NCBI GenBank assembly: GCA_011523425.1
Contig: WTGU01000040.1
Coordinates: forward strand, 1-64,000
Direction of reading: 5' to 3'
Length of the DNA: 64,000 nucleotides
From: Alphaproteobacteria bacterium
GTDB lineage: Bacteria > Pseudomonadota > Alphaproteobacteria > UBA828
Below, piece after piece: positions 4,572 to 33,040 of the stretch. Position numbers and translations under genes: made by a program. The notes beneath the pieces are model-generated. The model was not told the origin of the DNA, ran no database searches, and was given only the letters and a program-made list of their open reading frames with translations. Numbering within the stretch: the stretch's first letter is position 1; each line of letters starts with the position of its first letter.

Positions 4572-4622
4572 CCGGACCATGGTGCGGTTCACGGCGCTTG
4601 GCGCGGGTGCCAGGGTGGCGCC
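4572..4622 (+). promoter_or_regulatory. Conserved leader of DUF3486 cassette 1 (palindrome plus RBS hairpin)
   Basis: These 51 bp match the leader of cassette 2 (32819-32869) at all but a few positions, far better than the genes that follow. It opens with a palindrome around CCATGG (4572-4587; one mismatch pair here, perfect in copy 2). Bases 4593-4622 can fold: GGCGCT pairs with GGCGCC and TGG with CCA, with the likely ribosome site GGGTGG trapped in a bulge just before the ATG at 4623. One of the differences from copy 2 (C to T at 4598) keeps pairing as G-U. A DNA operator, an autoregulated RNA leader or an element end are all possible. The frame is open through it from a GTG at 4566, so an extended protein cannot be excluded. 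Confidence 0.6.
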
Positions 4623-5210
4623 ATGACGAACACGAGCGATTGGGCACCGCCGGTCGGGAGGGGTAGGCGCTCGTCGCTCGAGCGGCTGCCGTCCGCGCTG
4701 CGCGAAACCGTCGACACGGCGATCGCCGACGGCGCCACCCTCACCGAGATCGCGGCCCTCATCCGCGCCGAGGGCGGCACCTGCTCGCGCTCGGCCATCG
4801 CGCGCTATGCCAGGCGGCTGCGCGGCCTGCTCCGCTTGCAGCACGAGGCCGACCGCATGGCGGAGGGATGGGTTCGGACGCTGGCCGAGCGTGTCGAGGG
4901 CGGCGCGAGCGCGCCCATGATCGAGGCCGTGCGGTCGCTGGTGCTGCGCTCCCTGGCCGATCTCGGTGAGAGGGAGGACGCGGTGCCGACGGAGGAGATC
5001 GCCCGCCTCGCGCTCGTGGTGCGTCGCCTCGAAAGCGCCGATCAGACCCGCGTCGCACGGGAACACGCGGCGAAGGAAGCCGCCCGTGCCGCCGGCGGCA
5101 AGAAGCTGAAGCCCCTCACACCGGAGGCGGTCGCCACCATCCGCAAGGCCGTCGAGGGAGAGTTCGGGCTTCAGCTGCGGCGCGAGCAGGGCGAGGAGGT
5201 GTATTGGTGA
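4623..5210 (+). CDS. Solitary DUF3486 protein (phage Mu gp27-like), copy 1
   Basis: The protein has 195 residues. RRSSLERLPSALR (15-27) followed by DGATLTEIAALI and GGTCSRSAIARYARR (37-65) matches the N-terminal helix-turn-helix of DUF3486, the Mu gp27-like family usually found beside the large terminase gene in Mu-like phages. It is therefore a likely DNA-binding, small-terminase-like protein. The rest is helical and charged, ending in LTPEAVATIRKAVEGEFG. About 31 of 40 residues at 29-68 equal copy 2 (32261-32818). No other phage gene is near, so this is not a prophage. A ten-base phased repeat array starts 10 bp after its stop. The start is taken at the ATG after the conserved leader; the GTG at 4566 would add 19 residues. 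The function in the cell is unknown. Confidence 0.8.
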   Translation: MTNTSDWAPPVGRGRRSSLERLPSALRETVDTAIADGATLTEIAALIRAEGGTCSRSAIARYARRLRGLLRLQHEADRMAEGWVRTLAERVEGGASAPMIEAVRSLVLRSLADLGEREDAVPTEEIARLALVVRRLESADQTRVAREHAAKEAARAAGGKKLKPLTPEAVATIRKAVEGEFGLQLRREQGEEVYW

Positions 5211-5220
5211 TGCCCGCCCT

Positions 5221-5275
5221 GCGCAGTGCCACCTTGTGCCACTTCGTGCCGCTTTGTGCCGGATTGTGCCGCCTA
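5221..5275 (+). repeat. GTGCC decamer array of cassette 1
   Basis: GTGCC occurs at 5226, 5236, 5246, 5256 and 5266, exactly 10 bp apart, usually preceded by TT or TC (for example CTTGTGCCAC, TTTGTGCCGG). All copies thus lie on one face of the helix. The same kind of array follows copy 2 of the gene. It is non-coding, between the DUF3486 stop and mnmA, and an A/T-rich stretch (TAACAAATTAATT) follows. Binding by the adjacent HTH protein is a reasonable inference only. Confidence 0.8.
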
Positions 5276-5293
5276 ACAAATTAATTGGGGTCC

Positions 5294-5323
5294 GTGCCAC
5301 TTCGCGGCCCCGCCGCCCGGCCG
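5294..5323 (+). repeat. 30-bp end box of cassette 1
   Basis: This block begins GTGCCACTTCGCGG and ends CGCCCGGCCG. All 30 bases are identical to 32113-32142 in the opposite strand, and identity stops right after it. It lies 28 bp beyond the last phased GTGCC. With the leader it defines the limits of the repeated unit. It may be a terminator, a protein site or an element end. It is not coding in any convincing frame. Confidence 0.75.
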
Positions 5324-31858: not shown

Positions 31859-31928
31859 ATCGCTCGCGCCTGAGTCGCTCGCGCCCGGAGGGTCGCGAGC
31901 GCGGCAAGAGAGCGCGCGCCTGCTCCAT

Positions 31929-32090
31929 ATGGATGCCCGGAACAAGTCCGGGCATGACGCCATGTGTGGACGCCCCGCGTGCCTCCCTTTTCGTCATGGC
32001 CGGGCTTGTCCCGGCCATCCACGTCTCTCCGCCTCGCCTGACCTATGGAGATACCCAGAACGAGTCCGGGCAGGTCCGGGCATGACGGCA
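31929..32090. repeat. Cluster of intergenic palindromes, left of DUF3486 cassette 2
   Basis: This fills most of the 402-bp gene-free stretch 31859-32260. Type B (GGATGCCCGG, loop, CCGGGCAT) lies at 31931-31959, type A (CATGGCCGGG-CTTGT-CCCGGCCATC) at about 31992-32023, and a decayed type B at about 32050-32087. Types A and B recur on the other side of the DUF3486 gene at 32900-32985. Such GC-rich palindromes are dispersed in many alphaproteobacterial genomes and resemble BIME/REP units. No transposase is present. Confidence 0.75.
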
Positions 32091-32112
32091 ACGGTGGCCG
32101 GGCAAAAGGGGC

Positions 32113-32142
32113 CGGCCGGGCGGCGGGGCCGCGAAGTGGCAC
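32113..32142 (-). repeat. 30-bp end box of cassette 2
   Basis: On the minus strand this block reads GTGCCACTTCGCGG to CGCCCGGCCG and equals 5294-5323 at all 30 positions. It lies downstream of the second DUF3486 gene, after the decamer array and an A/G-rich spacer, in the same order as in cassette 1. Beyond it the two loci share nothing obvious. Confidence 0.75.
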
Positions 32143-32165
32143 AGCCCCCCCCTCGTTTTTTTATG

Positions 32166-32220
32166 CGGGATATGCCGGGACAACCCGGCACAACCCGGCA
32201 CAAACCGGCACAAGGAGCAC
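32166..32220 (-). repeat. GTGCC decamer array of cassette 2
   Basis: On the plus strand CCGGCACAA occurs at 32185, 32195 and 32205, with a diverged copy CCGGGACAA at 32175 and a weaker one ten bases before that. The step is exactly 10 bp. On the minus strand, reading away from the gene, this is a run of TTGTGCCGG. A further GTGC lies at 32217-32220 on that strand. It starts about 40 bp after the stop of the DUF3486 gene. In cassette 1 the units are less uniform but have the same phase. Confidence 0.8.
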
Positions 32221-32260
32221 GGCCGGAGGAGGGCGGCGGTGCGGCGGAGGCGCGGCGCGC

Positions 32261-32818
32261 TCACCGCGAGAACTCGCATTCGACCGCCCTGCGGATGATG
32301 GCGACGGCCTCGTCCGAGAGCCCCTGGCTGTAGGGAGGCCCGCCGGTGGCGCGGGCCTCGGCCTCGGCCGCCTCGCGTTCGCGCTCGATGCGGAACCTGT
32401 CGGCGCTCTCCAGGCGGTGCACCGCGAGCGCGAGGCGGGCGATCACCGCCGGCGGCACGGGCTCCTCGTTCTCGTCGAGATCGGCCAGGGCGATCAGCGC
32501 CATCTCCCGCAGGGTCTCGATCACGGGCCCGCTGACGGGGCCTCCGTCACACGCCTCCTCCACCCGGGCCAATCCTTGCACGATGCGGCCGGCCTCGTGC
32601 TTCCGGCCGACCATGCCGCGCACCCGCCGGACGTAGCGGGCGACGGCCGAGCGCGAGCAGGAGCCGCCCTCGGCGTGGATGAGGGCCGTGATCTCGTCGA
32701 TGGTGGCGCCGTCGGCGATCGCGGTGTCGACGGAATCGAGCAGCGCGGGCGGCAAGCTCCTCAGGGAGGAGCGTGGGTCGCAGCGGTCTTTCGTGGGTTG
32801 GTCGCTCGTGCTCGTCAT
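32261..32818 (-). CDS. Solitary DUF3486 protein (phage Mu gp27-like), copy 2
   Basis: The protein has 185 residues from the ATG at 32816-32818. RSSLRSLPPALLDSV (16-30), DGATIDEITALIHAEGG and CSRSAVARYVRRVRG (54-68) give the same helix-turn-helix as copy 1, with about 31 of 40 identical residues at 29-68. The C-terminal half is less alike but keeps IARLALxVxRLESAD (126-140) and a final AVAIIRRAVECEF block like copy 1. The shared C-terminal motifs show two full-length, probably functional genes, not a gene and a relic. It points toward copy 1, 27 kb away. A frame open upstream (to 32926) runs through the conserved leader. The role is unknown; the family is a candidate small terminase in Mu-like phages. 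Confidence 0.8.
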   Translation of the reverse strand: MTSTSDQPTKDRCDPRSSLRSLPPALLDSVDTAIADGATIDEITALIHAEGGSCSRSAVARYVRRVRGMVGRKHEAGRIVQGLARVEEACDGGPVSGPVIETLREMALIALADLDENEEPVPPAVIARLALAVHRLESADRFRIEREREAAEAEARATGGPPYSQGLSDEAVAIIRRAVECEFSR

Positions 32819-32869
32819 GGCGCCACCCTGGCACCCGCACCAGGCGCCGTGAACCGCACCATGGTGCGG
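32819..32869 (-). promoter_or_regulatory. Conserved leader of DUF3486 cassette 2
   Basis: This 51-bp sequence precedes the ATG at the same distance as in copy 1. Here the palindrome CCGCACCATGGTGCGG (32854-32869) is perfect. Closer to the gene, GGCGCCTGG and CCAGGGTGGCGCC can form a hairpin that buries the GGGTGG ribosome site. Compared with copy 1 the few differences either keep pairing or lie in the loop or palindrome edge. Conservation at the nucleotide level over this span, and not over the adjacent coding sequence, points to a DNA or RNA function. Confidence 0.6.
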
Positions 32870-32899
32870 GGACTCGAGAGGGGAGGACTCTCTCCGCCA

Positions 32900-32985
32900 C
32901 GTCACGGCCGGGCTTGTCCCGGCCATCCACGTCTCTCGGTCGTACCCGGCCCATATGGATGCCCGGAACAGGTCCGGGCATGGTG
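32900..32985. repeat. Palindromes right of DUF3486 cassette 2
   Basis: Type A (GTCACGGCCGGG-CTTGT-CCCGGCCATC) is at about 32901-32931 and type B (GGATGCCCGG-AACAGG-TCCGGGCAT) at 32957-32983. They repeat, in A-B order, what lies at 31931-32023 in B-A order, so the cassette is framed by palindromes in mirror order. A short A-like sequence (CACGTCACGGCCGGG) also precedes cassette 1 at about 4551. The remaining bases to 33040 show no gene. Confidence 0.7.
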
Positions 32986-33040
32986 GCGTGTGGCGTACGC
33001 AGAGCCGGGCGTAACGGCGTGGGAGCGAGTGACGGGCAGA

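Follow-up and report, generated by a model that had tools for sequence, protein, structure and literature searches.

Gene transfer agents (GTAs) of the RcGTA type, found in alphaproteobacteria, combine a phage-derived head-tail operon with accessory genes at several loci, and are kept genus-wide under purifying selection. How GTAs choose the DNA they carry is an open question. The small terminase proteins (TerS) of known GTAs are reported to have no DNA-binding domain, and their packaging is not known to use discrete sites (PMC6854486; PMC11841831). In headful phages, headful packaging starts from a pac site that is recognised by TerS and located in or near terS; one proposal is that TerS rings, their HTHs facing outward, wrap DNA much as a nucleosome does, and how TerS recognises its site has been called unanswered (PMC9611059). 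In the middle promoter Pm of phage Mu, the activator Mor occupies a 16-bp element whose centre is at -43.5 (PMC4390567).

Here we describe two loci in a 64-kb stretch of DNA (the window) that appear, from their sequence, to be parts of a Mu-like phage that has been dismantled. The set carried by this genus shares with the RcGTA type a phage-derived head-tail operon, accessory genes at several loci and conservation across a genus under purifying selection, and differs from it in being Mu-derived, in having a Mor-type promoter and in keeping the portal outside the head-tail operon. Mu-like transposable phages, such as Sinorhizobium phage Aussie and Chromohalobacter phage YPCBV-1, have the Gam, GemA, Mor, lysis, DUF2730, DUF3486, TerL and DUF935 portal families in common with it, and the gene order of one congener locus (G005) resembles theirs. 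Unlike those phages, which have MuA/MuB and one contiguous genome, the genus has its genes spread over several loci with host genes between the modules, has TerS apart from TerL, and has no MuA/MuB between the repressor and Gam and no transposase at the core locus (contig C80). This domesticated, dismantled phage is probably a gene-transfer machine with packaging starts scattered over the chromosome. The genomes compared are all in fragments, and every named record is a MAG; G, C and L numbers below denote genomes, contigs and loci, with G000 for the genome that contains the window.

Two TerS cassettes in the window

Both loci have the same order: a 51-bp leader, a PF11985/TerS gene, a 10-bp-phased GTGCC array, an A/T-richer spacer and a 30-bp box (Table 1). 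An earlier sequence-only reading of the window had placed these parts and their order correctly, with a near-identical leader and an identical end box; the two proteins are 56% identical, and the cassettes are 73% identical in a 767-bp alignment. Every GTGCC run of at least three copies found in the window sits in one of the two cassette arrays, and 30 Markov-3 simulations of 64 kb gave no run above three copies. A different intergenic repeat, of the TCATGCCCGGAC...TGTTCCGGGCATCC form, occurs several times in the flanks of the second cassette (window 31890-33000).

Table 1. Parts of the two cassettes, in window coordinates
Feature	Position	Strand	Remarks
Leader	4572-4622	+	51 bp
16-bp dyad CCGGACCATGGTGCGG, putative Mor-type activator site	4572-4587	+	promoter positions -51 to -36; geometry as Mu Pm (PMC4390567)
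-35-like hexamer TTCACG	4588-4593	+	
-10-like hexamer CAGGGT	4611-4616	+	predicted transcription start = A of ATG, 4623
TerS-like gene (PF11985 Phage_Mu_Gp27 / DUF3486)	4623-5210	+	195 aa
GTGCC array, putative TerS-binding/pac array	5226-5270	+	5 copies in exact 10-bp steps
A/T-richer spacer	5271-5293	+	
30-bp end box	5294-5323	+	opens with one more GTGCC unit
Leader	32819-32869	-	51 bp; few differences from the 4572-4622 leader
16-bp dyad CCGCACCATGGTGCGG, putative Mor-type activator site	32854-32869	-	perfect palindrome
-35-like hexamer TTCACG	32848-32853	-	
-10-like hexamer CAGGGT	32825-32830	-	predicted start at ATG, 32818
TerS-like gene (PF11985)	32261-32818	-	185 aa; C-terminal DNA nearly identical to third copy on C52 (apparent conversion tract)
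GTGCC/GTCCC/ATCCC array	32165-32213	-	10-bp steps; 3 exact GTGCC copies plus GTCCC/ATCCC units
30-bp end box	32113-32142	-	identical to box at 5294-5323

Profile matches identify both 'solitary' genes as encoding the phage protein that starts DNA packaging, each with a matching array of putative sites. PF11985 scores are 69.7 and 59.6 bits for the two window genes, with a further score of 65.4 bits, all above the 28-bit gathering cut-off, and the DUF3486 proteins match PHROG 426 ('terminase small subunit') with E-values from 1.6e-23 to 3e-17. The AF2 model of the TerS-like protein consists of helices throughout, and its N-terminal helical domain is predicted with confidence; in a Foldseek search the TerS proteins of P74-26 and G20C ranked second and fifth among matches that all had E>0.5 and were not significant. 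A third DUF3486 gene in the same genome (C52:29685-30218; L008) shares its leader with the window copies and is accompanied by an ATCCC array. Its C-terminal tract has 90-97% DNA identity to that of the minus-strand window gene, whereas the N-terminal domains and arrays of the two differ; the common tract (window 32261-32400 vs L008) is an apparent gene conversion.

The leader and the dispersed Mu-derived genes

A 24-bp core of the leader has 30 matches in G000 at up to three mismatches, against none for the reversed control, and a shorter core has 55, counting both readings of palindromic copies. Each of the seven congeners has 6-42 copies, and one weak match was found outside the genus among 52 genomes of the family, order and class. 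Across 93 copies with an ATG at equal distance, the conserved elements are the dyad at -51 to -36, T-35/A-32, G-14 (97%), A-11 (99%), T-7 (100%) and the ATG at +1. This pattern suggests a sigma70-type promoter from which a leaderless message would start, its dyad centred at -43.5 as in Pm. Unlike Pm, the leader occurs in many copies, has a G+C-rich dyad and a -35-like element, and is predicted to start transcription at the ATG. Six of the eight genus members have a Mor homolog (C80:60560-60874 in G000), and by analogy with Mu it would bind the leader dyad.

The genes preceded by a leader are those for TerS, portal, the head protease of the capsid operon, lysis and, in G005, TerL, while most leaders have an array but no gene downstream. 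The sequence-only reading had proposed to test whether leader and end box always bracket a DUF3486 gene, and had named conserved parts that occur without the gene as an outcome that would refute it. We found such an outcome for the strict 'cassette' and rejected leader and box as private brackets, because the leader is a predicted promoter common to other genes and to gene-less copies: it occurs about 30 times in the genome, mostly without DUF3486, and the gene is absent from three of the five copies of the end box found at up to three mismatches. At L048:695 (C87) there is a leader-like copy, followed about 85 bp downstream by a gene for a 275-aa protein that starts MASRKQIRANRRNARRSTGPKTAAGKA and has no PHROG match.

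Neither window locus has another phage gene, as had been noted earlier; this is correct locally, but the genome has the remaining phage machinery at other loci, dispersed between host genes (portal on C30, lysis on C124, TerS on C100 and C52, core on C80). The Mu-type portal gene (L045:2032-3180) stands behind a leader, alone between host genes, and its frame ends earlier than those of congener portals; one portal copy with leader is found in seven of the eight genus genomes (leader-portal loci L045, L138, L137, L143 and L144). TerL has a clear leader in G005 (L138) and a degenerate leader-like site on C80. A DUF5675-holin-DUF2730 module follows the leader at L046 and L297-L300 (on C124 in G000), and a head protease-MCP pair does so at L296 and L305 (C80 and G005), with the protease gene also found at L306 (G002).

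The head genes on C80 encode the protease, a scaffold, the major head protein (PHROG 1005, E 3e-68) and Mu gp36, and the tail genes encode Phage_tail_S, a tail terminator, the major tail protein, a 258-aa tape measure, whose length suggests a short tail, DUF1833 and a 1936-aa gpJ-like protein. Genes for TerL, Gam, GemA, Mor and an S24 repressor are on the contig as well. This head-tail operon was found in G000 and G005. A PF10124 search matched G002 only, and the apparent absence of a capsid elsewhere was overturned by another capsid family behind the leader. On C80 (about 36,400-60,900; L296, L303, L304) the operon end adjoins ATP synthase F1 genes, and the repressor, Gam, GemA and Mor genes are nearby.

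Between genomes, dN/dS is 0.12-0.28 for the portal, 0.19-0.36 for TerL and 0.22 for MCP, and lies within roughly 0.1-0.36 for Mor, which indicates that these genes are under purifying selection. From the dispersal of the promoter-linked phage genes and from selection in this range, we conclude that a Mu-like phage has been dismantled and is maintained across the genus. The term 'domesticated', offered earlier as one possibility, is supported because the selected genes include TerL, portal and capsid.

True Mu-like prophages exist alongside the dispersed set in G002 (L139 and L301, on C24 and C30) and G004 (L145, on C628), with contiguous TerS-TerL-portal genes, no leader and no phased array near TerS. 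Their co-existence would suit a satellite-like role, in which the dispersed TerS, TerL and portal divert the packaging of an infecting Mu-like phage to host DNA, as interference or borrowed transduction, without making particles of their own, and replacement of TerS specificity is a known satellite strategy. G000 nevertheless has its own head-tail and lysis genes, with a promoter of the same type, and we regard such capsid hijacking as very unlikely.

Arrays, TerS lineages and empty sites

A phased array lies downstream of 27 of the 37 leaders examined in G000, compared with 2 of 37 upstream controls, and arrays are found at none of the seven leaders of G005, where no TerS was detected. The array motif varies with the TerS lineage and not with the leader: GTGCC in the two window cassettes, ATCCC on C52 and in most copies of G001, G002, G004 and G006, GTCTC on C202 of G007, GTGCC plus AGGCC on C24 and C200 of G007, and GGGCC plus AGGCC on C78 of G006 and C73 of G002. 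TerS pairs with the same motif have a mean identity of 66%, versus 46% for pairs with different motifs (permutation p=0.0005), an association that partly reflects shared descent. DUF3486 genes occur in seven of the eight genus genomes, with a leader at nearly every solitary one. The earlier proposal of a recurrent unit that passes on a small DNA-binding protein together with the sites for it is thus supported by distribution, by motifs that track the TerS lineage and by the empty orthologous sites described below, with binding itself predicted from sequence.

A predicted N-terminal HTH region is present in the TerS-like proteins and linked to the array motif. Close TerS pairs have dN/dS of 0.23-0.73, and the N-terminal 62 codons exceed the rest of the gene in 13 of 14 such pairs, which are non-independent. 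Within genomes dN/dS is near 0.9; we do not claim positive selection from this value because the pairs are too distant.

Cassettes that stand alone in intergenic spaces, and arrays in such numbers, might be expected if TerS-like proteins had taken on a new role in binding or regulating the chromosome, with the arrays as operators or nucleoid sites and no role in packaging. We rate this very unlikely, the least probable of the readings weighed here: the arrays are 3' of the TerS gene and not at promoters, TerS has a conserved C-terminal region (where contact with TerL is usually made), and the genomes concerned also maintain TerL, portal and capsid.

Related genomes with empty sites, which the sequence-only reading had proposed to look for, do exist. 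At the mnmA site G000 has a full cassette, G001 and G002 have a gene-less copy with an ATCCC array, G006 has an array only, and the cassette is absent from the orthologous site in G003, G005 and G007; no clear target-site duplication was seen in the single occupied/empty comparison. Gene-less copies are 230-450 bp long and 72-89% identical to each other, and no TerS remains were found in them, which led us to reject their origin as deleted TerS genes. These properties, together with presence and absence at the mnmA site among congeners, would fit an origin as phage-derived interspersed repeats: MITE-like, non-autonomous elements once spread with a Mu-like phage, in which the arrays would be transposition or recombination sites and TerS a passenger, with most copies now in decay. 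Such elements would not account for an array motif that follows TerS rather than the leader, for TerS genes that remain open in several copies per genome, or for G005, which has leaders but neither TerS nor arrays, and no transposase partner was identified. We consider this origin unlikely.

Candidate packaging starts and related systems

We favour, with moderate confidence, the reading that the cassettes serve as scattered packaging-initiation units. The Mu-like phage to which they belong would be domesticated and kept by the genus in a GTA-like form. The starting points of this reading are known from sequence (gene content, the shared promoter, arrays, co-variation of motif and TerS, selection on core genes, and empty sites), and from these we infer TerS binding, packaging, particle release and the spread of cassettes. 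A Mor-type activator would bind the dyad and turn on the shared promoter at the head/tail, portal, lysis and several TerS genes. Each TerS oligomer would then bind 10-bp-phased arrays of the matching type, beside its own gene as well as in gene-less cassettes across the chromosome, and recruit TerL and portal, which are conserved; from many defined places, with the arrays as pac sites, host DNA would be packaged by the headful mode into particles built from the C80 operon. Counting against this GTA-like reading, most leaders are gene-less and could be relics, the portal frame of G000 ends early, its TerL has a degenerate leader-like site, and the genomes are fragmented.

The arrays can be likened to the pac sites of P22 and SPP1, which TerS recognises in or near terS, although they differ in being 10-bp-phased, present many times per chromosome and of several specificities. 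Helical phasing would fit nucleosome-like wrapping by TerS. Scanned stretches of five Mu-like phages and two prophages had no phased array beside TerS, unlike the cassettes of the genus. We therefore dismissed such arrays as an ordinary neighbour of TerS in Mu-like phages, and the putative pac assignment draws no backing from a phage homolog.

Unlike all known GTA TerS proteins, several TerS here have an apparently intact N-terminal HTH and matching arrays, and we file the system as GTA-like rather than as a GTA member because this putative DNA-binding region is kept. It would be an unusual GTA, since those described are not known to use a DNA-binding TerS or discrete packaging sites. No Mu-derived dispersed GTA or multi-pac GTA was found in the open-access literature; if particles are made, this would be, by that literature, the first GTA-like system in which packaging could start at many addressable sites. 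More tentatively, a GTA with sequence-specific packaging could let TerS-pac units diversify in specificity within one genome and perhaps spread selfishly by biasing which regions are packaged, leaving a natural recognition code between a TerS helix and a 10-bp-phased site. Several TerS lineages, each beside a differently spelled phased array, offer ready matched and mismatched pairs for examining both the wrapping model and such a code.

A search of wider genome contigs with the window TerS protein gave no relatives. With a closer alignment, 16 related loci were found, nearly all in alphaproteobacterial MAGs, which are named Alphaproteobacteria, Rhodospirillales or Defluviicoccus, and one in a MAG named Vicinamibacteria.
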